DNA of 64,000 nt from Fictibacillus phosphorivorans (GTDB lineage Bacteria; Bacillota; Bacilli; Bacillales; Fictibacillaceae): assembly GCF_001629705.1 (NCBI RefSeq), contig NZ_CP015378.1, forward strand, positions 2,108,001 to 2,172,000, read 5' to 3'. Below are positions 6,121-54,773 of this stretch, piece by piece. Numbering within the stretch: the stretch's first letter is position 1; each line of letters begins with the position of its first letter. The notes under the pieces are model-generated. The model made no database searches and was not told the origin of the DNA. It saw only the letters and a program-made list of their open reading frames with translations. Position numbers and translations under genes: made by a program.

Positions 6121-6192
6121 ATCCGTGAAATAATTAAGCTTATACGTGAATATATTACAATTTACCGTGAAATTATTTGGAATTACCGTGGA
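6121..6192 (+). repeat. 21-bp phased intergenic array, TACCGTGAAT motif (4 units)
   Basis: CGTGA or CGTGG occurs at 6124, 6145, 6166 and 6187, exactly 21 bases apart, as the core of a degenerate TTACCGTGAAATA motif; the filler between is AT-rich and not conserved. It lies between the 3' ends of the convergent gerXC and tubby-like genes. The reverse complement of the motif recurs in the array at 54.68 kb. The function is unknown. Confidence 0.85.
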
Positions 6193-6282
6193 TATATGGC
6201 TTAATATCCCCTCTTGTATGTGTCATGCGCACTTTCAATTACAATGCCCACCTCAAATGGACATCACTCAAATAAAAAAGAA

Positions 6283-6328
6283 GCTTTTACTCAATGTTCT
6301 CAAAACATTAAGTAAAAAGCTTCTTTTA
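6283..6328. terminator. Bidirectional intrinsic terminator
   Basis: A long inverted repeat (AAAAAAGAAGCTTTTACT ... AGTAAAAAGCTTCTTTT) with A-rich and T-rich flanks lies between the convergent ger operon and the tubby-like gene. It can terminate transcription from both sides. Confidence 0.85.
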
Positions 6329-6337
6329 TTAGTAAGT

Positions 6338-6856
6338 TCAGCCGCCAGAGCCTCCTGCACCAGCTCCGGCTGAAGATCGTTTTCGTTTTTCGATCGCATT
6401 AACTCCCATTACAACAGCAATTAGCTCTTCTGTTAACAATCGATCTGAAGTGTGTTTTAACTCATAAGCAGAAGCTTGGAAAAATCCATTCACTTTTTTA
6501 AACGTCGCTACTTCCTCCTTGTTCTCATCAAAAACGGTATACTCTTTTGAAAAAGCAGGAGCTTCAATTTCATAATTTTGCACATTCGTTATGTAATGAT
6601 ATTTTTTAGAAAATAACGCAAACGATGATTTTACAACACCGAGTTCCCTGCCGTCTGATTGCTTAACCACCCATTTTCCCGATAAGAAAGGAAAATTCCC
6701 TTCAACGATTAACCTTCCGGATGCATCTTCAATACTCACACCTGAAGAAAATGCGCTTCTTAGATCAAGGACACCTTGTTTCTGATGCTCTGCATTATAA
6801 ATATCAGTTTTACCTGACGAGAAAAAGGTATCTTCAAAATACACACATCTTTCCAT
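6338..6856 (-). CDS. Tubby C-terminal-like / LURP-one-related domain protein
   Basis: A 172-residue soluble protein with the beta-rich pattern of the bacterial LURP-one/tubby-like family (YxjI type): short strands such as GVSIEDASGRLIVEGNFPFLSGKW, here described by the alternating strand/turn pattern, then WVVKQSDGRELGVVK and FALFSKKYHYIT. The last 12 residues are a Gly/Ala tail (AGAGAGGSGG). No catalytic motif is visible. In the family the domain is thought to act as a phospholipid or ligand scaffold; the role here is unknown. The next gene upstream encodes a 38-residue membrane peptide. Confidence 0.65.
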   Translation of the reverse strand: MERCVYFEDTFFSSGKTDIYNAEHQKQGVLDLRSAFSSGVSIEDASGRLIVEGNFPFLSGKWVVKQSDGRELGVVKSSFALFSKKYHYITNVQNYEIEAPAFSKEYTVFDENKEEVATFKKVNGFFQASAYELKHTSDRLLTEELIAVVMGVNAIEKRKRSSAGAGAGGSGG

Positions 6857-6886
6857 GACAACAATCCCCCTAAGTCACTTTGGCAT

Positions 6887-7003
6887 TTATTTTTGCTGAT
6901 CTTCTAACTGTTGAAGTCGCTTTTCAAGTTTCTTTCGCTTTTCTATTTCCTGAAACACAATAATGAAGGCTGTCGCAGCCATACAAAATGTAACCCATTC
7001 CAT
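6887..7003 (-). CDS. Small single-pass membrane peptide (38 residues)
   Basis: A short open frame beginning MEWVTFCMAATAFIIVFQ continues into a charged helical tail rich in Lys, Glu, Arg and Gln and ends DQQK. It has a strong ribosome site AAGGGGTGA seven bases before ATG 7003, overlapping the stop region of the yunD-like gene, so it is probably co-transcribed and translated after it. Topology: N-terminal membrane helix of about 17 residues and a cytoplasmic amphipathic or coiled-coil tail. No family was recognised; the good ribosome site and codon composition argue that it is real. Confidence 0.65.
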   Translation of the reverse strand: MEWVTFCMAATAFIIVFQEIEKRKKLEKRLQQLEDQQK

Positions 7004-7010
7004 GTTATTG

Positions 7011-8399
7011 TCACCCCTTAATCTTCTGTAGTTCAGTAAATCTGGTATTAAAAGCGCTACTTACAAACTCTTTTTTCTCAGCATAAATTTCAATTACCTC
7101 TTTAATCTCTTCTGGCCGGTAAAACTCGTTCCGATTGTGGGCAAGCGATGGATAACCTGAACCTCGTTGGAGATAATCTGAAGAAGCAACCGAATACCAT
7201 CGCTCTTCATCTAACGGTTCATCGCCTATTCTCATTTCAACGACTCTCGTTCCATCATGAACAACTTCTGCGCCTGATAGATGCAGACCACCTACATACT
7301 TCCCTCTGAAGCCTGGTCCTCTTCCATCTTGTAAGCAATGTTGAACATTAAGTGATTGTTGAACTGCTTCAATTATGTATTTACCTTGAATCTCAAAAGA
7401 TGTTGGATTGAGGGGTGATGGGCAAATTTCGATACATTTTTTATGTGAAACGTAAGAAAAGATTCCAGCGTTAACAATCCCACTGTTGATCAAGCCTATA
7501 TCGGTATTCAGCATGTCTTTTAACCCATCTGCGATAAGATTTGTGATCGGGTTTTCATTGATCACATCGTGCCATAACGGTTCTTCCATTCCATATAACG
7601 GTTTTCCTAAGATCTCAATTGCCGTTTCTTTGCTTCGTTTAAGAATAGAAAGAATCTCTTCATCTGATTTCGAATCTAATGTGCTATAAACCGCGGATTG
7701 TAAAAGCGTTTTGTGCGTACCGTTTATTTCAAGTTCTAATACACCAATATGTTCACCAAAGTTTCCTGCACTTACGATGAACGTACCATTGACTACCTGT
7801 GCTTCTCTATATAAAACGTGATCATGTGAAGAAACGATCACATCGATGCCAGAGATTTCTTTTGCTAAATCTGTATCTGCTAGCGTTCCAACATGGTTTA
7901 GTAGGATACAAAGGTCGTATTTACCGCGGTTTCGCTCCAGTTCTTCGGCAATGGCGATAATGTAATTTTCTCCATGAAACCCTAGCCCGTCATTAAAAGC
8001 GCCTAAGTCAGGGGATGCGCCAGTCACGAAAATACGAAGTCCATTTTTGTTCAGGATTACACTTGATTGAACACCAGGAATCATCGTTTTATCTTTCTTG
8101 AAAAGATTGTTGCTGATAAAAGGAACTGTACTTTTTGTAGCCATATGTTCCAACGTGTCTGCCCCATTAAACATCTCGTTGTTGCCAATCGTTATTAAAT
8201 CATAACCAGCAGTCTCGAGAAGCTCCACCGCGGCAATTCCTTTAGTTCCTTGAAGTTCAATACTCTTGAAATCTGCAAAATCACCTGCGTCCACCAGTAA
8301 AGTGTTTTCGTCTTTATGTTGATGAATGAGCGTTACTGCTTTTGCAAAGTTATCAAAATGACTGTGAAGATCGTTCGTATGTATGATTTTAAGTTTCAT
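7011..8399 (-). CDS. yunD: YunD-like 5'-nucleotidase / 2',3'-cyclic phosphodiesterase family metallophosphoesterase
   Basis: A two-domain bacterial 5'-nucleotidase. The N-terminal calcineurin-like metallophosphoesterase domain carries the metal motifs HTNDLHSHF (residues 6-14), LLVDAGDFADF, GNNEMFNG and, later, VSSHDH. The C-terminal substrate domain begins around residue 260, with NPITNLIADGL and GLINSGIVNAGIF. Its 462 residues match Bacillus YunD in size and arrangement. There is no signal peptide, so a cytosolic nucleotide or phosphodiester hydrolase is likely. The exact substrate is not determined by the sequence. Confidence 0.85.
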   Translation of the reverse strand: MKLKIIHTNDLHSHFDNFAKAVTLIHQHKDENTLLVDAGDFADFKSIELQGTKGIAAVELLETAGYDLITIGNNEMFNGADTLEHMATKSTVPFISNNLFKKDKTMIPGVQSSVILNKNGLRIFVTGASPDLGAFNDGLGFHGENYIIAIAEELERNRGKYDLCILLNHVGTLADTDLAKEISGIDVIVSSHDHVLYREAQVVNGTFIVSAGNFGEHIGVLELEINGTHKTLLQSAVYSTLDSKSDEEILSILKRSKETAIEILGKPLYGMEEPLWHDVINENPITNLIADGLKDMLNTDIGLINSGIVNAGIFSYVSHKKCIEICPSPLNPTSFEIQGKYIIEAVQQSLNVQHCLQDGRGPGFRGKYVGGLHLSGAEVVHDGTRVVEMRIGDEPLDEERWYSVASSDYLQRGSGYPSLAHNRNEFYRPEEIKEVIEIYAEKKEFVSSAFNTRFTELQKIKG

Positions 8400-8486
8400 A
8401 AATCCCCCAAATTAATATAAAATTACCTTTACAAATAATGGTATCATAAATGATAAAGAAATGTTCATAAAATACGGAGGAATAGA

Positions 8487-9035
8487 ATGTCATATTACGA
8501 TAACGAGTTACGTATCAGACCAATTATAGACAGGGACCTCCCCAAGCTTTGGGAACTCATTTATAAAGAGAAGGCACCAGAATGGAAACAATGGGATGCT
8601 CCATATTTTGAGCACAAACAAATTCCTTTTGAAGAATTTATGTGGAACAAAGATCACTATGTTGATCATGAACAACGGTGGGCGATAGAAGTGGCTGGCG
8701 AGGTAATTGGAACCGTGAGTTATTATTGGGAGCACGAGCCTTCTCTCTGGTTAGAGATGGGGATTGGTATCTACAATCCTAATTATTGGAGCGGAGGATA
8801 TGGCACAAGGGCCTTTATTTTATGGATCAACCACTTGTTTAATAAGCTTCCACTTGTTCGGGTGGGATACACAACTTGGTCAGGGAATGAGCGGATGATT
8901 AAGGTTGGTGAAAAACTTGGCATGAAAATGGAAGGAAGAATGAGAAAGTGTCGTTATTACAATGGAGAGTATTATGACTCGATCAGGATGGGCATTCTTC
9001 GAGAAGAGTGGGATTCATCCACATTAGGAGGTTAA
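8487..9035 (+). CDS. GNAT N-acetyltransferase (RimJ/RimL type)
   Basis: A 182-residue GNAT fold. It opens with the usual strand LRIRPIIDRDLPKLWEL, has a central LEMGIGIYNPNYWSGGYGTRA that includes the acetyl-CoA-binding Q/GxGxxA-like turn (GGYGTRA), and closes with NERMIKVGEKLGMKMEGRMR and YYDSIRMGILREEW, typical of RimJ/RimL-type and ribosomal or small-molecule acetyltransferases. GGAGGAATAG precedes the ATG. The substrate is unknown. A possible promoter (TTTACA, 17 bases, TGATAA) lies about 40 bases upstream. Confidence 0.9.
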   Translation: MSYYDNELRIRPIIDRDLPKLWELIYKEKAPEWKQWDAPYFEHKQIPFEEFMWNKDHYVDHEQRWAIEVAGEVIGTVSYYWEHEPSLWLEMGIGIYNPNYWSGGYGTRAFILWINHLFNKLPLVRVGYTTWSGNERMIKVGEKLGMKMEGRMRKCRYYNGEYYDSIRMGILREEWDSSTLGG

Positions 9036-9039
9036 GAGT

Positions 9040-9243
9040 ATGGAGATTCTATTCGCGCTATCAGGTTATTTGATTTTATTTTTGGTTATCTATTTCGCGG
9101 TAAGAACTGGAATTAATGACTCAAAAGAGCTGTTGCAAATACGGAATGAACTATCGACTATGAAAAGTGAGTTAGAAAGGATCCGCAAATATTCAGTAAA
9201 CCATGAGGAGGAAGAATTTACTTGGCAAAATGGAAAACAATAA
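9040..9243 (+). CDS. Small membrane protein (67 residues)
   Basis: A single N-terminal membrane helix (LFALSGYLILFLVIYFAV) is followed by a charged, probably coiled-coil tail (KELLQIRNELSTMKSELERI). GGAGGTTAAGAGT precedes ATG 9040, four bases after the GNAT gene, and the 3' end overlaps the NUDIX gene start by 22 bases, so the three genes form an operon. No family was recognised. The design resembles small bacillar membrane-anchored coiled-coil proteins of unknown function. Confidence 0.75.
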   Translation: MEILFALSGYLILFLVIYFAVRTGINDSKELLQIRNELSTMKSELERIRKYSVNHEEEEFTWQNGKQ

Positions 9244-9776
9244 AAACACGATATATCTACCAAACGCCTTTTGGTCATTTAAGAACAGATAGCTGTCAGC
9301 TTTCTAACGGTGAGACAATAGATAACTATTATGTTCACGAATATCCTGACTGGGTGAATGCAATAGTATTAACTAAAGAAAAACAGATCGTGCTTGTTGA
9401 ACAATACCGTCATCCTGGTAATGACTTCTATTTAGAGATTCCAGCTGGAAAAGTAGAAGAAGATGAATCTTATGAGGAAGGAATCATTAGAGAGGTTCAA
9501 GAGGAAACAGGTTTCATTTCATTAAACAAACCGATCTTACTTGGAGAATTCATGGTGAATCCTGCTACACAGACCAATAAGGTTTTAACGTTTCTAATCT
9601 TTGATGCTTTCCAGTCGTCTTCCCAAAACTTAGATGAAAATGAAGATGTAACGCTTAAGATTATCCCTTTTGATCATATAGAGCAGTTGATAGAAGATCA
9701 TAAAGTTACACAGTTGTTTATGGTAAGCGCTTATTATTTAGCTAAGAATTATCTATCCAAAAATGAAGAAAACTAG
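9222..9776 (+). CDS. NUDIX hydrolase, ADP-ribose pyrophosphatase-like
   Basis: A complete Nudix box (G-x5-E-x7-REVQEETGF) lies at about residues 85-107, preceded by VLVEQYRHPGNDFYLEIPAGK, the layout of ADP-ribose/nucleoside-diphosphate-sugar pyrophosphatases. It starts at TTG 9222, after GAGGAGGAAGAATTTAC, inside the 3' end of the small membrane protein gene. Overlapping frames suggest translational coupling. The likely role is housekeeping hydrolysis of nucleotide-linked metabolites. The substrate is inferred from the upstream RHP motif and the 184-residue size. Confidence 0.88.
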   Translation: MAKWKTIKTRYIYQTPFGHLRTDSCQLSNGETIDNYYVHEYPDWVNAIVLTKEKQIVLVEQYRHPGNDFYLEIPAGKVEEDESYEEGIIREVQEETGFISLNKPILLGEFMVNPATQTNKVLTFLIFDAFQSSSQNLDENEDVTLKIIPFDHIEQLIEDHKVTQLFMVSAYYLAKNYLSKNEEN

Positions 9777-9803
9777 CTTAGTTGAATATACCTCTAAGCT
9801 AGT
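9771..9803. terminator. Inverted repeat, possible bidirectional terminator
   Basis: AACTAGCTTAG and CTAAGCTAGTT form a perfect 11-bp stem across the stop codon of the NUDIX gene, facing the convergent methyltransferase gene. The T tract is weak, so confidence is moderate. Confidence 0.55.
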
Positions 9804-9813
9804 TCTCACCTCT

Positions 9814-10596
9814 TTAATCTAGTTTCATTTTAACCGCACGTGTGGCTACAAAACTTTTAATAAAGGAATCGATCGGTCTTCTTCCACCAAAGTCATCTTC
9901 ATATAATCCAGTAATCACAAAACCCGCATCAATCTGCCCTTGTATTTGGTTCTCTAATGTGTGGCCGAATTCTATCGTCTCATCTGCCATAAGATAGGCG
10001 GACTTCTCTTTTTCTGTCATAGAATCAAGAGTTGAATAAGGAATGCTGTTACTTACCACTAGATTTCCCTTTTGGTCTTCTTCATCATCAAATATAAACA
10101 ATAATGGATTTGTAAAACCTGATATAAGTACACCTCGGTCTTTTAATACACGTGACGCTTCTCTCCAAACAGGAGAAATGTCTTCAACAAATACATTTGA
10201 AACAGGATGAACAATTAAGTCGAACTCCCCTTCATCAAACATAGAAAGATCACACATATCTCCTTGTATGACTCTTAGACTTAAATGATTTGTTTCTGCC
10301 ACCATCTGATCATTTTCTAACTGTTTTTGGGATATATCTACAACTGTAACCTCTGCACCAGCCGCAGCTAGCACAGGACCTTGTTGACCGCCTCCAGAAG
10401 CAAGACAAAGCACCTTAACTCCATGTAGTAACTTCGGAAACCAACCTCTAGGAACAGACTTTTCAGTTGTAACGGTAATATGCCAATCATCTAATTTACT
10501 TTTTTCAATAATTTCTTTTGATACTGGCCTTGTATAGCTCACACCATCTTCTACCTTTTTGTCCCAAGCCTTGCTATTGTGTTTAACCGTATTCAT
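9814..10596 (-). CDS. Class I SAM-dependent methyltransferase
   Basis: A Rossmann methyltransferase with motif I VLCLASGGGQQGPVLAAAGA (E/D-x-G-x-G equivalent LASGGGQQG), motif II VTVVDIS, then VIQGDMCDLSMF and FDLIVHPVSNVFVEDI. An N-terminal substrate segment begins MNTVKHNSKAWDKKVEDG. ATG 10596 follows AGGAG at 8 bases; an upstream in-frame start lacks a ribosome site. Length about 260 residues. The substrate is not evident. The N-terminal NSKAWDKKVEDG pattern is common in bacillar methyltransferases annotated only by class. Confidence 0.88.
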   Translation of the reverse strand: MNTVKHNSKAWDKKVEDGVSYTRPVSKEIIEKSKLDDWHITVTTEKSVPRGWFPKLLHGVKVLCLASGGGQQGPVLAAAGAEVTVVDISQKQLENDQMVAETNHLSLRVIQGDMCDLSMFDEGEFDLIVHPVSNVFVEDISPVWREASRVLKDRGVLISGFTNPLLFIFDDEEDQKGNLVVSNSIPYSTLDSMTEKEKSAYLMADETIEFGHTLENQIQGQIDAGFVITGLYEDDFGGRRPIDSFIKSFVATRAVKMKLD

Positions 10597-10670
10597 CTCT
10601 ATAACTCCTAGTCTATCTGTAGTTATATTTAGCATTCTTGAAAAAGGTCGGTAACTCCTTTACAAATGAT

Positions 10671-10708
10671 AAAAAAAGCAAAAGAGCCTTTCATTAAGGC
10701 TCTTTTGA
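10671..10708 (-). terminator. Intrinsic terminator of mqo
   Basis: AAAAGAGCCTTAATGAAAGG and CTCTTTTGC form a stem followed by TTTTTTT on the minus strand, immediately after the mqo stop. Confidence 0.9.
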
Positions 10709-10717
10709 ACAGTAAGT

Positions 10718-12265
10718 CTAAATCTTTTCATGTAAAACTGTAGGTTCTATTTCCGAAAAATCTGCTAAAGTGGGTTCTTTTGCATCAAGTTTTAGAGTAC
10801 GGGCTGTTGAAGAATGAACCTTCTTCAACAGATCAGGATTGTTCATCAATCGCTGGCCATAAGAAGGAATCATCTCTTTGATCTTTGGCTCCCATTTTCC
10901 GATTTCTTGTGGGAAGCATTTGTTCAACACTTCCAGCATAACGTGAACAGCAGTGGAAGCACCAGGTGATGCGCCAAGTAGGGCCGCAATCGAACCATCA
11001 GCGGATGTGATCACTTCTGTACCGAACTGAAGCGTTCCTTTTCCACCCGATTCCGTATCTTTGATGACCTGAACACGTTGGCCAGCTACGACAAGATCCC
11101 AATCTTCACTCTTAGCATTTGGGATGAATTCTCGTAATTCTTCCATACGCTGTTCTTTTGACAACAACACTTGTTGAATCAAGTATTTTGTTAGTGACAT
11201 TTCTTTAGCACCTGCAGCTAACATCGTTAAAACGTTATTAGGTTTTACAGAAGTGACTAAGTCAAGCATAGATCCTGTTTTTAAGAACTTTGGCGAGAAT
11301 CCAGCGAATGGTCCAAACAATAACGATTTCTTATTATCAATATATCGTGTATCCAGATGAGGAACAGACATTGGTGGTGCACCAACTTTAGCTTTTCCGT
11401 ATACTTTCGCGTGCTGTTGCTCAATCACTTCTGGATTCTTACATACCATGAAGATTCCGCTTACCGGAAAACCACCAATATGCTTTCCTTCAGGAATACC
11501 GGATTTTTGGAGAAGATGAAGACTTCCCCCTCCACCACCAATAAAAACAAACTTGGCTGTGTGTCTTTCAACAGAACCAGAGTTTAGATTTTTAACCTTC
11601 AGTTCCCAAGAGCCATCGCTCGTACGCTTTAAGTTTTCCACGCTATGTTTGTATTTGACATCTACATTCTTGTTCTGCAGATGACTAAATAACATACGAG
11701 TGAGTGAACCAAAATTAACATCAGTTCCCGAATCAATCTTGGTAGCAGCGATGCTTTCATCTAAAGAACGACCTTCCATGATCAACGGAATCCATTCCAT
11801 TAATTTCTCTGGAGAATCAGAGAATTCCATCCCTTTAAAAAGAGGATTTTCTGTTAGCGCTTCCATACGTTTCTTTAAAAACTGAACGTTGTTTTCTCCT
11901 TGAACCATACTCATATGTGGCAATGGCATGATGAAATCTTCTGGATTGCGAATTAACTTTTGTTCTACAAGGTAAGACCAGAACTGCATCGATACTTGGA
12001 ACTGTTCATTGATCTCAATGGCTTTTGAAATATCAATCGATCCATCTGGTTTTTCCGATGTGTAATTTAGTTCACAAAGTGCAGCATGCCCAGTTCCAGC
12101 ATTGTTCCACTCATTGGAACTTTCTTCTCCTGCTTTATCAAGTTTCTCAAATACCTTAATTTTCATTTCTGGAGCTATTTCTTTTAAGATCGTTCCTAAT
12201 GTAGCACTCATGATTCCAGCGCCGATTAAAAGGACGTCTGTGTTCGTTTCTCTGTTGCTCATCAT
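10718..12265 (-). CDS. mqo: Malate:quinone oxidoreductase
   Basis: Membrane-associated FAD enzyme that oxidises malate to oxaloacetate and feeds electrons to quinone. The N-terminus carries the FAD-binding [15 protein letters not shown]. Family features include [40 protein letters not shown] (a second nucleotide-binding Gly cluster, cited by its core) and [18 protein letters not shown] near the C-terminus. About 515 residues, typical of Mqo. The start is ATG 12265 or the adjacent ATG 12262; AAAAGG precedes. The gene stands alone with its own terminator. Confidence 0.96.
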
Positions 12266-12280
12266 TATCAACCTTTTCAC

Positions 12281-12566
12281 CTAAAATTTACAGAAAAAAG
12301 CCATCGTCTCATCCTCAAGAAAAGACAATTTGATTACGTGTTTTTTCTGTTTTTATGAAAACCGTTTCAACTAGTATTACTAATGTTTAAGTCTTTAATA
12401 TCTTTATTATATGATAATTATAAATTATTTGAAAGCCGATAAAATGTGATAATTATATGACTAGTGTGCCCAAACTCTTTTAACATCAATAAGTATACAG
12501 GTTTACAAGAAAGTTTTAATGAAGAGATTACCCGTTAATCATTGTAACTTTCACTCTTTCACATAA
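12281..12566. other. Intergenic region, no gene seen
   Basis: This AT-rich stretch lies between the start of mqo and the end of comK. It should hold the mqo promoter on the minus strand. No ORF with a ribosome site, no riboswitch-like block and no repeat was seen. Confidence 0.5.
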
Positions 12567-12596
12567 CAAAAACGCCTGAAATTCTCATCAGGCGCT
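12567..12596 (-). terminator. Intrinsic terminator of comK
   Basis: GCGCCTGATGAG and the complementary CAGGCG half form a stem followed by a T run on the minus strand, just past the comK-like stop codon. Confidence 0.85.
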
Positions 12597-12612
12597 CAAG
12601 TTTTTATGATTT

Positions 12613-13155
12613 TTACGTTAAGATCCAATCATTGTTTTTCAAACTTATTTCTTTATCCTTTTCTAGATCTCGATTGATTCGATTTATTAATACACTTCTG
12701 TAATGAGCTGCTCGATGGAGTTTGCCTTTAAGGGCTCGGGAGGTACTTTCAATAGGTAGGTCCATTCCGTTGGAGAAAATAACTCTAACTTTTTTCCGGT
12801 CAATTGATTCAATATCATCAATATGCGGCTGTGAGAGCCAGATGCAGGAGTCTTTTCGTGGTGATTTCGTGGGAAAGAAGAAAATATCAAGTTTCGTGTC
12901 AATCATGATAGGAGGAAAGCACATCCTCCCTAACAGGATCTGGGTTGCATCTTTTTTGCCATCGTATGTACTTCCATAGTACGGGCAAGAATCTTTAATA
13001 ATTCGGAAAGGCTTTTTTTCAACTAGGATGACTGCGTCTTCTTCATAAATTTCTGCACAAACCCTTCCCCACTGATTAATAAATGGATGAATGGCAATGG
13101 TCTTATTCGTTATTAAATATTTTTCCACTTTTTCGTGCACAATTCTACGCTTCAT
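12613..13155 (-). CDS. comK: ComK-family competence transcription factor
   Basis: ComK is the master activator of DNA uptake genes in bacilli. The protein (180 residues, against about 190 in Bacillus subtilis) keeps the family pattern: an early TIAIHPFI strand, FRIIKDSCPYYGSTYDGKK matching the ComK S-C-x-x-x-G-S-x-Y-x-G-R/K block, PPIMID, IFFFPT with Pro-Thr, CIWLSQPHI and VIFSNGMDLPI. The C-terminal tail, which recruits ClpP-mediated degradation via MecA in Bacillus subtilis, is shorter here. GAGGAGGTATTGA precedes ATG 13155. Whether it can activate competence is unknown; no clear ComK boxes were found in its own upstream region. Confidence 0.88.
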   Translation of the reverse strand: MKRRIVHEKVEKYLITNKTIAIHPFINQWGRVCAEIYEEDAVILVEKKPFRIIKDSCPYYGSTYDGKKDATQILLGRMCFPPIMIDTKLDIFFFPTKSPRKDSCIWLSQPHIDDIESIDRKKVRVIFSNGMDLPIESTSRALKGKLHRAAHYRSVLINRINRDLEKDKEISLKNNDWILT

Positions 13156-14265: not shown

Positions 14266-14267
14266 TG

Positions 14268-22772: not shown

Positions 22773-22807
22773 TCTACGTGGGATTTTAATATAGAAGTTT
22801 TCAGCTA

Positions 22808-22922
22808 ATCTGTCCGATTGAAAGGATAATCTGTCCGATCTCGAATGAAATCTGTCCGTTTAAGCATTTTATCTGTCCAATTCCGTTCATAATCTGTCCA
22901 ATTCCCTCGTTAATCTGTCCGT
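22808..22922 (+). repeat. 21-bp phased intergenic array, ATCTGTCCG motif (6 units)
   Basis: The hexamer CTGTCC begins at 22810, 22831, 22852, 22873, 22894 and 22915, each step exactly 21 bases, extended as AATCTGTCCGAT or AATCTGTCCAAT. The filler is variable. It lies between the RodA-like terminator and the convergent sensor-kinase operon terminator, a place without any gene. The function is unknown. Confidence 0.95.
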
Positions 22923-22971
22923 TTCCAATTTCAAGTAACAACTCCCCCTCACTTCAACGTATCAACAAATA

Positions 22972-47194: not shown

Positions 47195-47221
47195 TTTCAA
47201 AGAATAATTACTCTTTCTAAA

Positions 47222-47256: not shown

Positions 47257-47310
47257 ATGGTTTGGAGCAGATCTATGTATGTACGGTACGTGTTTTTATA
47301 TTTCTTACAC

Positions 47311-47425
47311 GTTCGCCGATAAATCAAAGATTTCCACCTGTAAAGTTATGTTTACCACCTATGTTTTATAGATCTTCACCTGTAAATGAAGTTGCACCAC
47401 CTGAGATTTGAGACTGACCACCGAT
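47311..47425 (+). repeat. 21-bp phased intergenic array, CACCTG/CGCCGAT motif (6 units)
   Basis: The motif position recurs at 47314 (CGCCGAT), 47335, 47356, 47377, 47398 (CACCTG or CACCTA) and 47419 (CACCGAT), all 21 bases apart, so one array mixes a CACCTG and a C(G/A)CCGAT variant. It sits between the coat gene terminator and the next gene; the rest of this 409-base gap holds no gene. The function is unknown. Confidence 0.9.
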
Positions 47426-47603
47426 CAACATTTATTTTACTTAAAATGAGGCAAATATGGCTAACAATACTATAATCTGTCCTAGCCCATCTCCACTCAC
47501 ACAACCCACATCAACTCAACCAAGTCATTTAACCATTTGATATACTGTTTACATATATAAGGGTTCATTTTTTATCTAACTATTTGAGGAGTTGAATTAA
47601 TAA

Positions 47604-48041: not shown

Positions 48042-48045
48042 AATA

Positions 48046-48083: not shown

Positions 48084-48094
48084 TACAAGGATAA

Positions 48095-48913
48095 CTATCT
48101 TAAAAAATCCTCTAAAGCTTGCTGAAGTGTAGCTTTTGTCTGAGCCTTGCTTTCGAAAGTTAACCCGATCGTTGTTATTTTGCGTACAATTTCTGGGCGG
48201 AGCCCCGTAATGACACACTCACACCCCATCATGTTCGCACCTTCCATTACTTTCATGATGCGTTCGATCGCTTCTGTCTCCATTTGAGCGATACCAGAAA
48301 GATCAATTACTAACGTGCCGATGCGGAGTCTGCTGATTTCTAAAAGAACTTTCTCTTCAATCGTGTCAATTCGATATGTATCAATACTTCCAATTAGCGG
48401 AAGCACACAAACCTTTGATGTAATCGGAATAATTGGAACAGAAAGGTTTTCAACAAGTGTTTTCTGCGACTCAATTAAGTTATCTTTGTACTCTGAATAG
48501 CTTAAAAATAGTTCATTCAAAAATTTATCGATGCGATCATTTATTTGCCTTTCTGTATTAAAAAAACTTTCAGCCTCTAATTCGATGTGGTTTAATTTAT
48601 TAAATTCTTGAAAATATTTCCATACCGTTCTTCGGATGGCATGAACCCATTCTAATTTGAATGCAAGCGTAAGGCTGTGAGATGCCCACGATACACCTTC
48701 AATTTTTGCAAACTTTTCTAATTCATGATCTTTTCCTTGAATGGTGTACATCACAAGTTTATGGGCATTAGACAATAAATCGATATTCCCTATCAACAAA
48801 ATTTCTTCAATCTTTCCACGAACATTTCGGGCTTCACTTAATAAAGATTCTTGGAACTCTTCTCTGTTATTAGTAAAGTATTGAATATAATCCTTTTCCA
48901 AGACTAAACCCAT
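48095..48913 (-). CDS. RsbR-like STAS-domain stressosome protein
   Basis: A 272-residue protein. The N-terminal helical domain (about 1-140) is of the RsbRD-like globin-related sensor type (LEKDYIQYFTNNREEFQESL; ASHSLTLAFKLEWVHAIRRT). The C-terminal STAS domain spans about 155-270 (VCVLPLIGSIDTYRIDTIEE; IGTLVIDLSGIAQMETEAIE, with GIAQMET at the phosphosite region; CVITGLRPEIVRKI). RsbR paralogues build stressosomes that control SigB. The residue at the usual Thr phosphosite is not certain from this reading. ATG 48913 follows AAAGGAG. Confidence 0.87.
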   Translation of the reverse strand: MGLVLEKDYIQYFTNNREEFQESLLSEARNVRGKIEEILLIGNIDLLSNAHKLVMYTIQGKDHELEKFAKIEGVSWASHSLTLAFKLEWVHAIRRTVWKYFQEFNKLNHIELEAESFFNTERQINDRIDKFLNELFLSYSEYKDNLIESQKTLVENLSVPIIPITSKVCVLPLIGSIDTYRIDTIEEKVLLEISRLRIGTLVIDLSGIAQMETEAIERIMKVMEGANMMGCECVITGLRPEIVRKITTIGLTFESKAQTKATLQQALEDFLR

Positions 48914-49044
48914 AGTGTTCACTCCTTTTTGAAAATTTTACCTACTTTTGTACTATTGTATCACTTTCAAAAAAGATTGAAGTGAAAATTTTGTATGTAA
49001 AACTGTTTTATCCGTTATGTCATTATTCTCACATATTTTAAATC

Positions 49045-49075
49045 AAAAAACCGTAACAAATTTCGTTACGATTTT
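49045..49075 (-). terminator. Intrinsic terminator of the sulfotransferase gene
   Basis: ATCGTAACGAAA and TTTGTTACGG pair and are followed by TTTTTTG on the minus strand. Confidence 0.8.
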
Positions 49076-49114
49076 CATGGTAAATACGTATTCTCCTTTT
49101 CAGGATTTACTTGT

Positions 49115-49864
49115 TTACCAAAGTAAATCCTTTTCATATCCTAACTCAATGAGCAGATGGCCAGCTATCTCTTTAAAGGCATCAGAAATCTCTTCATCAA
49201 ACTCTTCTTTCCAGTTTCCGATCGTCCCTTTTCGGAATGTAGCAGAGTCCTGAGTTGAAATGTTTTCTTTCGCACGTTTGATTATCGTCTGATCAAGGTT
49301 TCCAAGTTCCTCTTCCGTAATAAACTGTACGATCTTCTGAACCGATTGGTCTAGAGAATCTTCACTTCTTAATAGATCTTCAAACTTAACAGAAAGCACA
49401 TTAAGCGCCGTTAACCATCCTTTAAATTCCGAGAACCAATCATGAATATTTTGATGACCCAATTCTGGAATTCCTCTTATGATGGATAGCATTCGTTCTT
49501 TTTTGGACAATTGCTTTTTTTGGTAGTATTGATGAAGTGGAGCATCTACCTTCTCAATATAATAATTATAAGAGACGACAACATCACGCAAGTCTCGATA
49601 GAGGAAGACTTGTTTTAGATCGAGATCTTGAAGAAGCTTCTCCCATGATGCGGAATAATAAATATGGCCAGACAAGAATTCATTCTCTTTTAATTTCTCT
49701 AGCTCGCGCTGATGATCAGCCAATTGTGCTGAGACACCTTCGTAAAGATGCAGATTTTGATCAAATGTAATGGAATGAATTCCTGTTAATATTTGAAACA
49801 TAAGATGTGTACCACTCTTAGGAAACGAATTAAAGAAAAAAGGACGTATTGCTTTACTCATTTT
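49115..49864 (-). CDS. Sulfotransferase-domain protein
   Basis: A 249-residue PAPS-dependent sulfotransferase-like protein: the 5'-phosphosulfate loop FFFNSFPKSGTHLMFQIL near the N-terminus, LQDLDLKQVFLYRDLRDVVV (3'-phosphate region, with YRDLRDVVVS) and WLTALNVLSVKFEDLLRS in the middle, ENISTQDSATFRKGTIGNWK (the RKG-GNWK motif) at the C-terminal third. All family motifs are intact. Preferred start is ATG 49864 after AAAGGTGA; ATG 49888 is also possible. The acceptor is unknown; it could sulfate a surface glycan or small molecule. Confidence 0.88.
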   Translation of the reverse strand, partial: KMSKAIRPFFFNSFPKSGTHLMFQILTGIHSITFDQNLHLYEGVSAQLADHQRELEKLKENEFLSGHIYYSASWEKLLQDLDLKQVFLYRDLRDVVVSYNYYIEKVDAPLHQYYQKKQLSKKERMLSIIRGIPELGHQNIHDWFSEFKGWLTALNVLSVKFEDLLRSEDSLDQSVQKIVQFITEEELGNLDQTIIKRAKENISTQDSATFRKGTIGNWKEEFDEEISDAFKEIAGHLLIELGYEKDLLW

Positions 49865-50068
49865 AACGATCACCTTTTCTATTGACATGACATACATACC
49901 TTTCATATTTTATTCACTTACTTCCAATCCGCTTGTACAATTGCCTGTTCATATAAATTTTCCACAAACACAAAAAGAATTTTAAAAAGACATCCACTTT
50001 TATTATTCAACGCGCGAAACTTATAAAGCAAGACCTTAACCCCTAATTGTTAGCAGAATGAAACCGAG

Positions 50069-50099
50069 AAAAAGGCAGGGATACACTCCCTGCCTTTTG
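50069..50099 (-). terminator. Intrinsic terminator of the arsenite permease gene
   Basis: AAAAGGCAGGGAG and CCCTGCCTTTTTC form a GC-rich stem followed by T-rich sequence on the minus strand. Confidence 0.88.
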
Positions 50100-50113
50100 T
50101 CGTGAATTTCGTT

Positions 50114-51082
50114 TTATTTAGAATCTCGCAACACCCAATTTGGTACTGTTTTTATATAGATTAATTCGCCGATTAGTTCAACCATGGTCTGCGTTACGAT
50201 CACCGCTGCAGCTAATGTTCGCCAAGCCTCTGGTAAAGCTAGTGCTAGCGGGAGAACCACAAGAGAATTTCTTGTCCCCATACTAAAGATTAATGCTCTT
50301 CCTGCACCTATATCTAAAGAGAATATCCGTGAGATCAATCGAGACACAATTGGCATGATGATTAAAAATAATACATAGATCGGAACGACTTTAATAATGA
50401 TAGTAAAATCAGTGTAGACTTTGTCTATCTGTGAAGCGACCACCACGATTAAGACGAGAGCCATAAAAGGAACAGGTAACCATGCTGTAAGTTCCAATGC
50501 CTGAACCCCTAGCGTTTGTTTTTTTGCCCACCACTGTGTAAGTACTGCTAATAATAAGGGGGTGACAATGAGAAAGAAAAATGCTTCTAAAAACGGTTGA
50601 ATCTGCACTACGTTAAACATCTCTTTCCCAATGAATAACCACAAATACAGAGGAAGCAGGACCATTTGTACAACGAACAAAAGTGGTGTTGCCGCAAGCA
50701 TCAATTTTTCGTTTCCTTTTCCCAGCTGAGTAAACAAAATTACATAATCAATACACGGCGTAAGAAGAACTAAGCAAATCCCTAATAATAAAGGTGTGGA
50801 CTGCGGAAAAATGAGAGTAAGGATCCATACGACGATGGGTACACATACAAAATTTCCAATTAATAAAGCTATCATAAACCTGACATTTGAAACGGCTTCT
50901 TTTAGCTTTAAAAAAGGTATCTGTGCAAACATTCCATACAAGAGAATAGCGATTAGTGGAGAAATCGTCCATTGAAGTTCCGTTCCAAAACGTTCAAAAT
51001 TAAGGCCGATTAAAGCACCTACTACCAAAGAAATAACGTAGATTCCTATTTGTTGATTTTCAAGACCTTCCCTTGTAATCAT
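50114..51082 (-). CDS. SBF-fold (bile acid:sodium symporter superfamily) arsenic-resistance-type permease
   Basis: A 322-residue protein with about ten membrane helices of the BASS/Acr3 superfamily: LVLLTPCIDYVILFTQLGKG holds the conserved membrane Cys of arsenite-extruding members, and FSMGTRNSLVVLPLALALPE matches the second inverted repeat. No arsR, arsC or arsD lies nearby, so arsenite transport is not certain; organic-anion or sodium symport is the alternative. AGAAGGAG precedes ATG 51082. Confidence 0.85.
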   Translation of the reverse strand: MITREGLENQQIGIYVISLVVGALIGLNFERFGTELQWTISPLIAILLYGMFAQIPFLKLKEAVSNVRFMIALLIGNFVCVPIVVWILTLIFPQSTPLLLGICLVLLTPCIDYVILFTQLGKGNEKLMLAATPLLFVVQMVLLPLYLWLFIGKEMFNVVQIQPFLEAFFFLIVTPLLLAVLTQWWAKKQTLGVQALELTAWLPVPFMALVLIVVVASQIDKVYTDFTIIIKVVPIYVLFLIIMPIVSRLISRIFSLDIGAGRALIFSMGTRNSLVVLPLALALPEAWRTLAAAVIVTQTMVELIGELIYIKTVPNWVLRDSK

Positions 51083-51226
51083 GTTAAAAACTCCTTCTAG
51101 AAAACTTCACCACTCAACTATGTATGTGTTAGACCATATTTTAAATTATTAATATACCATTTTCGCTAACAATAAAAAAGAACCGCCTTGATTTAAAGAG
51201 GGTCCTTCTGTTGTCTATTCACTTTT

Positions 51227-51469
51227 TTAAGCGCGTTCCAATACTTTAGCTAACAAATGGTGAATAACCTCGTGGTCTCGTGGATCGTGCAATCGGTATT
51301 CTTCACCCGGAAGCGTATACCACTCTGCCGCTCCCGCATATGTGATGCCGAGTTTCAATAAACCATCTTCCGTACAGCTTGTCTTAAGCTCGAGCTCTCC
51401 GCTGATCACGCCGACCTCTGTAGTCATTACACCATGAGTTGCCGTAAAGATTGTTGATTTCTCTTCCAT
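51227..51469 (-). CDS. Hypothetical protein, 80 residues
   Basis: A compact beta-rich protein (TATHGVMTTEVGVISGELEL; LKLGITYAGAAEWYTLPGEE) with a helical end (DHEVIHHLLAKVLERA). GAAAGGAGC precedes ATG 51469. No family was recognised; no signal peptide. Confidence 0.65.
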   Translation of the reverse strand: MEEKSTIFTATHGVMTTEVGVISGELELKTSCTEDGLLKLGITYAGAAEWYTLPGEEYRLHDPRDHEVIHHLLAKVLERA

Positions 51470-51525
51470 TGGACCAGCTCCTTTCTTTTAAAACAAGATG
51501 GTACATTGTTTATACTCTAAATCGA

Positions 51526-52167
51526 TTAATACGTGCAAGTGTTAAGCATGCTTTGAAGAGATGTTTTCTCTGCTGATTGAAGATTTAAGCCCCAGTTATA
51601 CTTTGTTTGAATCCACCATTTTGCGTATCCACAACCAGCAGCCGTGCGAGTAGGTTTCCATGTTGATGGATCTTGGTCCCCTTTTGATCGATTGGAGCTC
51701 GCCGTTACGGCAATAAGTTGTGGTCCCGTAAGATCATTTGCAAAAGCCTCACGTCTGTCAGTCGTCCAGCTGCTTGCTCCAGAACGCCAAGCCTCTGCTA
51801 ATGGCACAACATGATCAATATCAAGATCAGATGGATTCGTAATCGTTACACCGTCGTAATAGCTGTACCAACTGCCTGATGTTACTGGACAATTCCCGCT
51901 AAAAGAGTCTGCATCACGCTTAAGAACAACTTGACGTGTATCACATCCTCCACCTTGACTCGACCAATGAGGAAACAGATCGCGAGAATAACCAGTCATT
52001 GTACTTTCTGTCTTTACGACTAATGCGTTCAACTGAGATTGTGCAGCAGATTTAGTAGGTGTTCCTGGCGGTAGTGCCCATGCCTTTTGGTTATCATCAG
52101 ATGTAACAACGACGAATGACATCACTAGAGTAAAAACAAACGACCACAACATCGATTTCTTCAACAT
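51526..52167 (-). CDS. Secreted HNH (DUF1524/GmrSD-like) endonuclease-family protein
   Basis: A 213-residue protein with a Sec signal peptide (KKSMLWSFVFTLVMSFVVVT). The catalytic region contains the HNH-type DLDIDHVVPLAEAWRSG with IAVTASSNRSKGDQDPSTW, where D-H and the downstream N-R-S-K-G form the His-metal site, and CGYAKWWIQTKYNWGL at the C-terminus. Four Cys are probably in disulfides. GGAGGATTTAAGC precedes ATG 52167. It probably degrades extracellular DNA for nutrient recovery or competition. Confidence 0.87.
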   Translation of the reverse strand: MLKKSMLWSFVFTLVMSFVVVTSDDNQKAWALPPGTPTKSAAQSQLNALVVKTESTMTGYSRDLFPHWSSQGGGCDTRQVVLKRDADSFSGNCPVTSGSWYSYYDGVTITNPSDLDIDHVVPLAEAWRSGASSWTTDRREAFANDLTGPQLIAVTASSNRSKGDQDPSTWKPTRTAAGCGYAKWWIQTKYNWGLNLQSAEKTSLQSMLNTCTY

Positions 52168-52364
52168 GCTTAAATCCTCCAATATGTAGTTTTTTTAAAA
52201 TCGTTATCATTTTATAACATGTCTTTAGGGGTTGGCATTACGAATTCGGCAATTAAACATAATCTAGACCTTAGATATAGGTAGGTAGTCTCGTTTATTA
52301 CGGTCAAATTTGCTATCGGAAACCATTATAGTAAAAAATAATTATTCCTTGCTAAGCAACTTCA

Positions 52365-53561
52365 CTATTGCATAGCAGGTTGTTTTTCTCCTGGAAGAGG
52401 AGCAGGGTCTATGCTTTGGTCGTTTGGTGATAGATCGATGCCATAATCTTTCGCAAACACCATATGTGTTTCTTTTAAAACATTCTCATGATTTAGATCC
52501 AAATTGAAAACACGAGCTCCCCGTAGTCGGTTCTTCTCCTCACCAGGAAGTCCATACGCTCCAAATCCAGCGCTTCCTCCATATCCGAGCATAATGCCAT
52601 AATAGTTTCCTGCATATGTGTTGATGTGATCATGACCACAGAAGACGCCTTTTACATCGCCTCGATGCTGCATAGCTGAGAATAAGCCAGAATTGATCGG
52701 ACCCGGACATTCATCCTCGTTTCTCTCACCCGTAATTTGATGCTTGTTTCTAGCACGAGCGTGATCCGCTTCCGTTCGGCTATCTACACTCGAATACCAC
52801 ATATAACGATGCTCCCAAAGCGGAATATGTATGAACATGAGAGAAGGCACTTTAAATCCAAAACGATTCTCGATCTTCTGAGAGGTTTCGTTGTACCAGC
52901 TGACTTGATCAAAACGAACCCAGTCCCATGTTGGATAACCCTCAAAATTTTGCCCCGCAATCTCTTTTGGCGCGTAACGTCCACTATCCATCAACCAGAA
53001 ATTAAAAGCGGGCTTCTTCCCTTTCGCGTCCCACACAAGTAGGTTCATGTTCCCGGTTCCTGTGATGTGTTTTGCTCCCTTATCGTTCACATTGTGTTTG
53101 TAAGACTGATAGAAAGCTAACATCTTACTCTCGTCCACACCGCTTTTTGGGGTAGAATCTTCATCATGATTTCCAAAAGTTACAGCCCACTTGATTTCTC
53201 TCTTTTCCATCGGTCCTGCAACATTGTTCATCGCCTGTTTCATTTCAAGTTCCGTATCGCATCCACCTGTAATTACATCCCCGTTGAGTACGACAAAGTC
53301 AGGCTTCTCTGCATCCAGCACGTTTTCCATCAACTGAATGGTACGTTTGTCGATCCGCTCATCATCTTGCGTATCATTAAACTGCACTACTTTGAATTTT
53401 CCGTTCGAATGAAACTTCAGTACTTTTTCTGCTTTTTGATCAGCATGGACTTTCTCAGAAAATAAGTTAGAAGTATGCCCTAGCGAACCAAGTGTTAATG
53501 CTAACGTACTCACTCCTCCAATCTTAATAAAATCCCGACGATTTACTTGTTTAGAAGTCAT
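52365..53561 (-). CDS. Tat-exported metallophosphoesterase
   Basis: A 398-residue phosphoesterase. The N-terminus is a Tat signal (QVNRRDFIKIGGVSTLALTL, twin-Arg RRDFIK). The calcineurin-like metal motifs follow: VVQFNDTQDD, DFVVLNGDVITGG, VTFGNHDEDST, MFIHIPLWEH and VFCGHDHINTY. Such enzymes resemble purple-acid-phosphatase-like phosphodiesterases made under phosphate limitation; no Pho box was recognised. GGAGGGGTAGCAAA precedes ATG 53561. Confidence 0.9.
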   Translation of the reverse strand: MTSKQVNRRDFIKIGGVSTLALTLGSLGHTSNLFSEKVHADQKAEKVLKFHSNGKFKVVQFNDTQDDERIDKRTIQLMENVLDAEKPDFVVLNGDVITGGCDTELEMKQAMNNVAGPMEKREIKWAVTFGNHDEDSTPKSGVDESKMLAFYQSYKHNVNDKGAKHITGTGNMNLLVWDAKGKKPAFNFWLMDSGRYAPKEIAGQNFEGYPTWDWVRFDQVSWYNETSQKIENRFGFKVPSLMFIHIPLWEHRYMWYSSVDSRTEADHARARNKHQITGERNEDECPGPINSGLFSAMQHRGDVKGVFCGHDHINTYAGNYYGIMLGYGGSAGFGAYGLPGEEKNRLRGARVFNLDLNHENVLKETHMVFAKDYGIDLSPNDQSIDPAPLPGEKQPAMQ

Positions 53562-54215
53562 TTTGCTACCCCTCCATATTTATGTATGTTGAATCATTAC
53601 AAGTTTAAGAGTAGCAAGGCTATTTTTAGGAAGTGTTTGACTGTTGTAAATATTGTGTGAGGGTGGTGATTGAGAGATTTTACAAATGGTTGCCCCCAAA
53701 ATGGTTGTTTTATAAGTAGAGGGGTAATAAACGGTCTATTCTGGGGGTATACCGATCGCAGAAATTGTCGATAATTAACGACTCGCCGATATATGTTCAA
53801 AACTCGCCGTATTATCGTTCAATCTCGCCGTATTTCCAAAATTTCTAGAATTATTTTATTAAGATCATGAATCAAGAGGCTTAATACCCCGGTGGGTATA
53901 CAAAATCAATCTTGTTCACCCTTCTAAATAGTCTTTAATTACATACTTTCTGTTAAATACAACGCGCTGAACTCTTCATAGCACTAAACATTGTTCTCAA
54001 AAATCATTTTCCTACATAAATAAATCGTCCAACATCATATTTTAATCAATTCGATTTGCTGACGGCGATTGTTTTTCCGCAAACACAGGCTGTTTCTATT
54101 TCTAGCACCCAATCGTGTAACGATGGACAGACTGTATCCATATTTTATTATGAGGAATTTGAGCAGAGACTCTCTACTCGTTCTAGATCTGACAAAAAAC
54201 AAGGAGGTGTTTGTA
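53562..54215. other. Divergent intergenic region upstream of the bacteriocin precursor
   Basis: 654 bases with no convincing gene. It holds the phosphoesterase leader, the 21-bp array at 53784-53833, a short inverted repeat ACCCCGGTGGGT near 53887 and the leader of the precursor gene. A short hairpin-like ATGGACAGACTGTATCCAT lies near 54122. No promoter could be assigned with confidence. Confidence 0.5.
53784..53833 (+). repeat. 21-bp phased intergenic array, CTCGCCGTAT motif (3 units)
   Basis: CGCCG begins at 53784, 53805 and 53826, each exactly 21 bases apart, inside ACTCGCCGAT, ACTCGCCGTA and TCTCGCCGTA. This is the shortest of the five arrays. It lies upstream of the bacteriocin precursor gene. 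The first unit matches the CGCCGAT variant in the array at 47.31 kb. Confidence 0.85.
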
Positions 54216-54518
54216 TTGGACAATAAACACCAATGGAATTTGGATGGATTAAGTACTGGAGACTTTCAAGTTAGTGGCGGTCAGCCACATCATCCCCAAG
54301 AACAGCAAGCACAAGACCCTCGCCTTATCGTTCCAGGCTGTGTAATCGGAATTTGTTTTAACTTTTGTGGAGGTTGCGCAGGTTGTGGCGGATGCGGTGG
54401 TTGTGCTGGTCGTTGCGGAGGCTGTGGCGGTTGTGGCGGATGCGCTGGACGTTGTGGTGGTTGCGGCGGTTGCGCTGGACGCTGTGGCGGATGCGGCGGA
54501 CGCTGCGGAGGCAGATAA
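54216..54518 (+). CDS. Heterocycloanthracin/sonorensin-type bacteriocin precursor
   Basis: A 100-residue precursor of a linear azol(in)e-containing peptide. The leader (about residues 1-41, with GDFQVSGGQPHHPQEQQAQD) is followed by a core from about residue 42 (PGCVIGICFNFCGGCAGCGG) to the end, made of 17 Cys with Gly, Ala and Arg, no Ser or Thr. Most spacing is C-x-x, but repeated C-A-G-R units add one residue. Cysteines are expected to become thiazoles. It starts at TTG 54216 with AAGGAGGTG 8 bases upstream; longer in-frame versions lack a site. The core is locally GC-rich. The enzyme genes follow on the same strand. Confidence 0.93.
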   Translation: MDNKHQWNLDGLSTGDFQVSGGQPHHPQEQQAQDPRLIVPGCVIGICFNFCGGCAGCGGCGGCAGRCGGCGGCGGCAGRCGGCGGCAGRCGGCGGRCGGR

Positions 54519-54548
54519 TTAGTAACATGCATTGTTCGAAGAAATTTC

Positions 54549-54586
54549 AGGGGGCTTTGCTCAAGTTTTTGAGCATCAGTCCTCTA
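54549..54586 (+). terminator. Stem-loop after the bacteriocin precursor, possible attenuator
   Basis: AGGGG and CCTCT flank an inner GCTCAAGTTTTTGAGC hairpin, followed by ATTTTATTG. It could partly terminate or process transcripts, so the precursor would be made in excess over the enzymes. The tail is weak as an intrinsic terminator. Confidence 0.6.
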
Positions 54587-54680
54587 TTTTATTGTTAGCC
54601 GCCGTTACAAGCATGAATTCCGTCCTCCTCAAGTAAACAAATTATATAAATGTATTTTTCAGAATGACACACTAACAAAT

Positions 54681-54773
54681 ATTCACGGTAATCTCAAATA
54701 ATTTCACGGTAATCCACGATATATTCACGCTAACTCCCTTTTTATTCACGGTAACTTGATTTATATTCACATT
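54681..54773 (-). repeat. 21-bp phased intergenic array, TTACCGTGAAT motif (5 units), inside the bacteriocin locus
   Basis: ATTCACGGTAA or variants recur with CAC beginning at 54684, 54705, 54726, 54747 and 54768, each exactly 21 bases apart. On the minus strand this is the TTACCGTGAAT motif of the array at 6.12 kb. It lies between the precursor gene and the ThiF-like gene, in the middle of the bacteriocin cluster. Confidence 0.93.

Follow-up and report, generated by a model that had tools for sequence, protein, structure and literature searches.

Intergenic repeat arrays with a 20- or 21-base-pair step adjoin genes of a NERD-domain protein subfamily in Fictibacillus and other Bacillales

The window considered here, a 64,000-nucleotide stretch of the Fictibacillus phosphorivorans chromosome (NZ_CP015378.1, positions 2,108,001 to 2,172,000 of the forward strand), contains five intergenic arrays in which a short motif recurs at a step of exactly 21 base pairs (bp). 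The arrays lie at 6.12, 22.81, 47.31, 53.78 and 54.68 kilobases (kb) and hold 4, 6, 6, 3 and 5 units, respectively. The original prediction, made by a model from the letters alone, had given this step and these unit numbers and places, and they were borne out on re-inspection. The arrays also occupy gene-free gaps, as it had claimed, with all five lying between open reading frames (ORFs) of at least 90 amino acids. Arrays of this kind adjoin genes for a subfamily of proteins with a NERD domain (PF08378), one motif per paralogue, and are probably same-face binding sites of their cognate NERD proteins that have spread as solo elements. Below, genomes carry G numbers (the F. phosphorivorans genome is G000) and loci carry L numbers. 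The features of the window, in window coordinates, are as follows.

6095..6119, plus strand: F1 header (GTGTCGAATATCGGATAAAAAATTT), directly 5' of the first unit and kept with the array in most F1 copies
6120..6203, plus strand: F1 array, four units of 21 bp, CCGTGAA with A/T flanks; family of the NERD gene at G000 3463903
22807..22932, plus strand: F2 array, six units of 21 bp, motif AATCTGTCC; family of the NERD gene at G000 4098777
47283..47311, plus strand: F3 header (ACGGTACGTGTTTTTATATTTCTTACACG), an exact-pattern copy, of which the genome has 18
47312..47437, plus strand: F3 array, six units of 21 bp, CACCTG/CACCGG type; G000 is without a close NERD of the F3 clade, and G004 has one (L338)
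53765..53780, plus strand: header-like stretch with TTGTCGATAATT, its likeness to the F1 header being judged by eye only
53781..53843, plus strand: array of three units of 21 bp, motif CTCGCCG, family unsettled; the motif resembles the 20-bp CGCCGATATA array of the NERD gene at G000 3335859
54671..54775, minus strand: F1-motif array, five units of 21 bp; the upstream sequence differs from the usual F1 header, and orthologous arrays are found at L119, L123 and L139 (group K)

In most inspected copies of the F1 family (TWWCCGTGAAWWTAW), four units stand behind a header similar to TTTGTCGAAAATCG..TAAATNATTT. The 54.68-kb array differs, as do its orthologues, in having five units and another kind of sequence upstream. 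The F1 header (L006, L105–L109 and others) contains TTTGTCGAA, which we take to resemble a Spo0A box. Members of the F2 family (TAATCTGTCCRATT) have about 4–7 units and no obvious header, and at the site of the window's F2 array there are 5 and 8 units in L021 and L022. The F3 family has a header, ACGGTACGTGTT..TTACACG, and usually six units; 15 of the 18 headers in this genome lead CACCTG/CACCGG-type units and the other three lead TTCGCTCA/TTCACTC-type units. The unit profiles of F1 (TWWCCGTGAAWWTAW) and F2 (TAATCTGTCCRATT) are asymmetric. The filler between motifs is AT-rich as first described but not wholly free, the unit of the 6.12/54.68-kb family being TWWCCGTGAAWWTAW plus about six free bases. 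Further families in this genome include GACTTAAT, CGTGGATT and others at a step of 21 bp, and several at 20 bp. Two near-perfect 20-bp arrays of G000, with about 9 and about 10 units (L003:13891-14066 and L016:16986-17182) are probably young members of the class.

Within the window, an exact 7-mer in three units, sought at periods 8–60, was found three times at period 21, twice at 42 (the double step) and nowhere else. A wider census covered 864 kb, or about 20% of the 4,230,665-bp chromosome, as the window plus 40 systematic 20-kb stretches, and counted an array as non-coding if it lay mostly outside ORFs of at least 100 amino acids. It yielded 20 non-coding arrays at period 21 and six at period 20, or 15 and six without the window, which had been picked for its arrays. 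Multiples of the array period added four arrays at 40, seven at 42 and three at 60. The 44 other periods between 12 and 60 held four arrays in total (one at 12, two at 18 and one at 23), 41 of them being empty. By eye, two of the 26 census arrays (L008:3156 and L141:17477) look like low-complexity chance cases. Simple scaling of the census suggests on the order of 100 arrays in the whole genome. When the spacing of TCTGTCC pairs was left free between 11 and 41 across the whole genome, 38 of 40 pairs fell at exactly 21, and CCGTGAA-N14-CCGTGAA occurs at 20 places in this genome compared with none for the reversed control. The original prediction had called for a genome-wide scan of periods, and had named a lack of enrichment at 21, or arrays that are rare and limited to the window, as grounds for dropping it. 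Given the excess at 21, and at 20, over the other periods, which is also found outside the window, these grounds do not apply.

The supposed constancy of the 21-bp period holds for the dominant step, but a 20-bp step is used as well. This second step bears on the idea that the arrays are remnants of coding repeats seven codons long, a length that equals 21 bp and that four period-21 arrays inside ORFs of the 864-kb sample might be taken to favor. Among the 26 non-coding arrays, six step by 20 bp, and one and the same header leads 21-bp units in G000 and mostly 20-bp units in G005. The seven-codon reading of 21 bp is excluded by the 20-bp arrays, some of which stand behind the very same header; for the array class it is already refuted, and we give it practically no weight.

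A probable gene partner that could not be seen in the window is apparent at the orthologue of one F3 site. In G014 and G002, this site holds an array, a gene for 324 amino acids and a second array. The site in G000 has a single array, whose units match the second array of G014 and G002 and whose left flank matches that of the first, a state that looks like loss by recombination between the two arrays. The 324-residue product is a NERD protein. G000 has nine PF08378 matches. The ninth (22.6 bits) is of a different kind and is without a period-20–21 array beside it. Eight motif families of G000 each have one array with a NERD-domain gene next to it; by eye, each of the eight genes, given here by G000 position, has an array beside it, each with another motif.

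4098777: CTGTCC array after the gene, which has one in-frame stop
3335859: CGCCGATATA array at a 20-bp step, before the gene
1890643: GACTTAAT array before the gene
406981: GGCCCATAAA array at a 20/21-bp step, before the gene
1185041: TTATGTGAT array before the gene
3463903: CCGTGAA array before the gene
416846: GAATCGCTCA array at a 20-bp step, after the gene
497000: CGTGGATT array before the gene

Uninterrupted copies of the F2 NERD gene, with a CTGTCC array behind them, are present in G002 and G012.

Adjacency was counted with a fixed array caller and a limit of 400 bp from a NERD gene of about 325 codons. An array was called at seven of the eight G000 genes (the miss being GACTTAAT), at all seven F3-type NERD genes of relatives and at 15 of 19 NERD genes for 320–345 amino acids in 19 other genomes, from other genera; this last set derives from 20 loci picked by frame length and genus, from which L314 was dropped as it had no NERD hit. 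With the same caller, arrays were found at 27 of 453 G000 genes of at least 200 codons, at 1 of 37 other genes in the same foreign regions (arrays within ORFs being uncounted in both of these sets) and at 2 of 29 best-scoring short NERD loci (30 were fetched, one had no ORF over its center, and one of the 29 genes encodes 369 amino acids). Fisher p values for array–NERD adjacency are 5e-8, 3e-9 and 4e-7. One of the two matches among the short NERDs, L290 (G088), is a gene for a 286-residue NERD protein with a real-looking 21-bp array (CTTCGGCCAACTTT), and the pairing may thus extend beyond the 325-residue form; the other match is chance-like. With all subfamilies pooled, PF08378 has matches in 110 of 120 genomes, G000 included. 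A second finder was offered periods 19–22 and compared the better flank of each gene with 40 shuffles per flank. It placed 51 of 57 rows (four of which repeat a locus) above all shuffles, and all 51 are at period 20 or 21.

The partner protein is about 325 residues long and comprises a nuclease-like core, a zinc ribbon and a C-terminal winged helix. All four proteins scanned match PF08378, with 65 to 81 bits against a cut-off of 22.1 (E values of 9.6e-18 to 9.8e-23). In an alignment of 69 relatives, drawn from 120 among the matches listed (135 were found), Glu46, Asp79, Lys94 and four cysteines are invariant and Glu92 is kept in at least 90%. Residues of a PD-(D/E)XK-type active site are present, and nuclease activity is predicted. 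The predicted structure is confident (predicted local distance difference test, 94.6; predicted template modeling score, 0.89) and places the winged helix at the C-terminal end. Its structural neighbors, at middling Z scores, are PD-(D/E)XK nucleases for about residues 1–190 and ArsR/MarR-type winged helices for residues 262–333. The anti-phage models of PADLOC-DB 2.0.0 gave no whole-protein match, and a weak partial match to PglW over the NERD part was seen in two of the four proteins (best E value, 4.4e-5). One paper (PMC9040797) describes the role of the NERD domain in bacteria as unstudied before that work.

Motif and protein diverge together. Close NERD orthologues keep their motif: CGCCGATATA at 20 bp for L268, L337, L340 and L345, CCGTGAA for L272, L125 and L137, and CTGTCC for L267, L344 and L341. 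Within the clade of NERDs with the F3 header, L248, L249 and L251 have TTCGCTCA-type units at 21 bp, and L254, L255 and L257 have them at 20 beside 21 bp. Other units in this clade are TTCACGCA (L256), TTCGCCCA (L335) and CACCTGTAAA (L338), and the proteins with these other units are diverged. Among 36 proteins of less than 85% identity, with L335 and L338 excluded for their short frames, motif similarity correlates with protein identity (Mantel r of 0.438, p of 0.0002). Motif similarity stays level, at about 0.47, for the 574 pairs below 45% identity and is 0.53 at 45–55% (37 pairs), 0.78 at 55–70% (9 pairs) and 0.82 at 70–85% (10 pairs). A GTCGAA header precedes the array of four G000 NERDs, L269, L270, L272 and L274, and the pairs L269/L270 (48% identical) and L272/L274 (49%) are the top two among the NERDs of this genome in a table without the F2 NERD.

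Both motif and spacing are conserved between species. Eleven groups of orthologous F1-motif arrays from six Fictibacillus genomes gave 53 pairs, with differences at 55 of 2178 motif sites, 73 of 1090 A/T-block sites, 98 of 1257 header sites, 310 of 1308 filler sites and 2079 of 10,353 flank sites. The motif changes 8–9 times less than the fillers or flanks (0.025 substitutions per site compared with 0.237 in the filler), a conservation that is inflated because a locus needed at least one exact CCGTGAA pair to be picked up, and the pairs are non-independent. Insertions and deletions are about 11 times rarer in the arrays (5 in about 4452 bp) than in the flanks (137 in 10,600 bp). For F3, 17 orthologous pairs differ at 16 of 494 header sites, 211 of 1119 motif sites, 304 of 797 filler sites and 524 of 1928 flank sites; in two of these pairs the motif has switched, which lowers the motif conservation measured, and several pairs come from a common locus. 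The low rate of motif change, the few insertions and deletions and the steps of 20 and 21 bp lend support to the earlier suggestion of selection on spacing and of a phased scaffold for protein binding.

Recognition appears to be at the level of DNA. Positions 2, 3, 11, 12 and 15 of 156 F1 units are A or T in at least 98%, with both letters common, and 55 of the 73 A/T-block changes between orthologues exchange A and T. Such A/T-degenerate positions point to DNA recognition, would fit minor-groove reading, and argue against the alternative of transcribed arrays whose repeats serve as sites in RNA. An RNA role would find some encouragement in the strandedness of F1 and F3, in their header, for which a hairpin can be drawn, and in the terminator that by eye often lies beyond the array. 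The terminators, however, mostly belong to the facing gene (by eye), no Rfam 15 covariance model matched at the arrays in a scan of the window at the gathering score, A and T swap freely at fixed positions, and steps of 20 and 21 bp match turns of DNA. We regard an RNA element as very improbable.

The arrays come and go, and change motif, at fixed sites. The flanks of the 6.12-kb site were used to look for it in 18 Fictibacillus genomes. Four of them (G009, G002, G014 and G006) have CCGTGAA-type units there. G016 has CGGA-type units, led by a header of the same kind, and G012 has TTAACGTGAA units without an F1-type header. The flank search showed no array at this site in G003 and G004; the remaining genomes gave a one-sided match, an array-only match or none. 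One F3 site has CACCTG-type units in G000 and G006 and TTCGCACA/TACGCTCA-type units in G014, where the header has 0 of 29 differences from the G000 copy although all six units have changed. In the 20 F3 copies read in G005, the same header leads TTCGCTCA/TACGCTCA units, mostly at a step of 20 bp, or TTCGCCC-type units at 21 bp. Near-identical G005 copies, up to 92% alike, have in common a stretch that runs from 3–29 bases before the header to about base 142; most pairs match little further and the flanks are unrelated, which indicates that header and array are copied together. The number of exact F3 headers in a genome ranges from 0 to 62 across 18 Fictibacillus genomes, and none was found in 42 other genomes searched. 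The original prediction of a self-propagating element that converts motifs locally stands in part: header and array are copied as a unit, and at one site the header was kept while six units changed.

Spread as a unit and presence or absence at orthologous sites are also what would be expected of plain non-autonomous mobile repeats, like miniature inverted-repeat transposable elements, that are moved by another enzyme, with NERD adjacency a result of insertion nearby or of co-travel. Solo arrays, however, keep their motif while fillers reach 0.24 substitutions per site, the adjacency singles out one NERD subfamily (short NERDs show it in 2 of 29 cases) and reaches other genera with other motifs, and the motif follows the protein. 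Taken together, we consider plain mobile repeats improbable.

The arrays also have a direction on the chromosome. With the origin placed at dnaA (4215184 in G000 and 4040079 in G005) and the terminus at about 2.0 Mb, by the change in GC skew in G000 and by assumption in G005, the header-to-unit direction is toward the origin for 10 of 11 F1 arrays with a header and 15 of 18 F3 arrays in G000, and for 28 of 34 F3 arrays in G005. Inclusion of a variant and a headerless array brings the F1 count to 10 of 13 (p = 0.09). Four further F1 matches, three pointing toward the origin and one away, give 13 of 16 with the variant (p = 0.02). In the origin-near half lie 26 of 34 F3 arrays of G005 (p = 0.003) and 21 of 31 F1 and F3 arrays of G000 (p = 0.07). 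Fifteen of the 18 G000 F3 arrays also face a gene on the other strand, so replication direction and gene direction are inseparable here.

This polarity, the origin-near bias of F3 in G005 and the strong constraint at solo sites could all be understood if the arrays were polar sites with a part in host chromosome organization, be it in the nucleoid, in segregation or in repair, to which NERD or a different protein binds and whose dispersal is incidental. Eight paralogues with eight codes in one genome are unlike housekeeping, as are the range of 0 to 62 F3 headers between species of one genus and the empty orthologous sites. The direction itself is confounded with gene direction and becomes weaker for F1 once headerless and variant arrays are added. 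We find this explanation rather unlikely. The main alternative to nuclease-driven dispersal is that solo arrays serve in chromosome maintenance, and the two may both hold because dispersal and constraint are both seen.

The reading that we prefer is that each array would be a row of direct repeat sites for one NERD paralogue, with sites about two DNA turns apart and thus on one face of the helix. Each paralogue would read its own motif, with one array adjoining its gene and further solo arrays, made up in F1 and F3 of a header and 4–6 units, dispersed along the chromosome. The NERD protein would probably fill the array cooperatively, and the header, which is common to a NERD clade with several unit motifs, is probably the site at which the putative nuclease acts. 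Header and array are the unit copied to new places, and NERD could drive this dispersal, use the arrays in chromosome maintenance, or possibly both. A binding partnership between NERD protein and array is the part of this proposal that we hold to be likely. That NERD drives dispersal through nuclease action at the header is a tentative suggestion. It is likewise possible, no more firmly, that Bacillales have a two-part system in which paralogous NERD nucleases with fast-evolving codes recognize phased arrays and copy header and array to new intergenic sites, where selection then keeps the arrays.

Several observations weigh against this proposal. The most awkward is that arrays outlast their NERD: G000 has 18 F3 arrays, yet all eight of its NERDs are at most 41% identical to an F3-clade NERD, and its F2 NERD gene (L267, 4098777) carries one in-frame stop. 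Neither a second end nor a target duplication was seen. The correlation of motif with protein is carried by pairs above 45–55% identity. Nor is it specific to the winged helix: the C-terminal part has a partial r of 0.16 once the NERD part is controlled for, and the NERD part has one of 0.24 with the C-terminal part controlled for. Four loci (L309, L319, L321 and L324) were not above all shuffles with the second finder, and no convincing array was found at L310 and L336, the other two misses of this finder, the latter being ended by a contig end; repeats of the array kind are visible by eye at least in L309, L321 and L324. The way in which the F1 loci were chosen, described above, belongs here as well.

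Other features of the window and of the sampled loci deserve mention. Between 54069 and 60232 of the window, a short Gly/Cys-rich ORF precedes genes with matches to a thiazole-containing bacteriocin maturation protein and to a SagB-family dehydrogenase, and the F1-motif array stands between the precursor-like ORF and the maturation gene. A RodA-like protein encoded at 21.5 kb has 95–97% identity to its counterparts in F. nanhaiensis, F. phosphorivorans and F. norfolkensis. The Rfam 15 scan found two S-adenosylmethionine riboswitches on the minus strand at 963-1079 and 2054-2175. A separate class of repeat with a period of 52 bp is present in several Bacillaceae (L029, L036, L047, L053, L055, L056, L059, L065, L088 and L097), and an element that resembles it by sequence adjoins the array in L021.

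In the open-access literature, we found no description of such arrays in Bacillales and no link of NERD proteins to repeat arrays, which does not prove the arrays undescribed. The arrays give one NERD subfamily a concrete and testable DNA target, and they account for a large class of unusual repeats between genes in Bacillales. With so many protein–motif pairs occurring naturally, there would be material at hand from which to learn how a protein of this type reads DNA.

Among known systems, CRISPR arrays likewise have regular repeats with variable stretches in between, but their repeats are long and near-identical, their spacers are unique and they are accompanied by cas genes. Here, the conserved part is about 9–15 bp, the period is 20–21 bp, the partner is NERD and different species have inherited arrays at the same sites (no search was made for cas genes). 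Direct repeats about 20–22 bp apart that are bound by protein on one DNA face are found in plasmid iterons and in the multiple-site ends of Tn7 and Mu. Unlike iterons, the arrays described here are solo, many and chromosomal, and lie beside NERD genes rather than plasmid replication genes; F1 and F3 queries had no match among 72,556 plasmids. Elements with ends like those of Tn7 and Mu have two ends in inverted orientation and a target duplication. The order of array, gene and array in G014 and G002 is in direct orientation; the copied unit has its limits near the header start and the array end, and inspection of 20 flanks by eye showed no target duplication. Membership of the partner in the NERD family is clear, and its subfamily differs by the added zinc ribbon, the winged helix and the adjoining arrays, whereas 27 of 29 short NERDs have no array beside the gene. 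The nearest analogue is REP/REPIN with RAYT, which likewise combines short dispersed intergenic elements with a genome-resident cognate enzyme, has one enzyme type per repeat type and leaves orphan repeats. The cognate enzyme of REP elements is a Y1 (HUH) transposase and the repeat unit is palindromic or a hairpin. The gene found beside the present arrays encodes a NERD nuclease-like protein and not a Y1 transposase (no search for Y1 was made), and the sites are non-palindromic and stand in rows at 20–21 bp behind a header, with eight such pairs of protein and motif in one genome.

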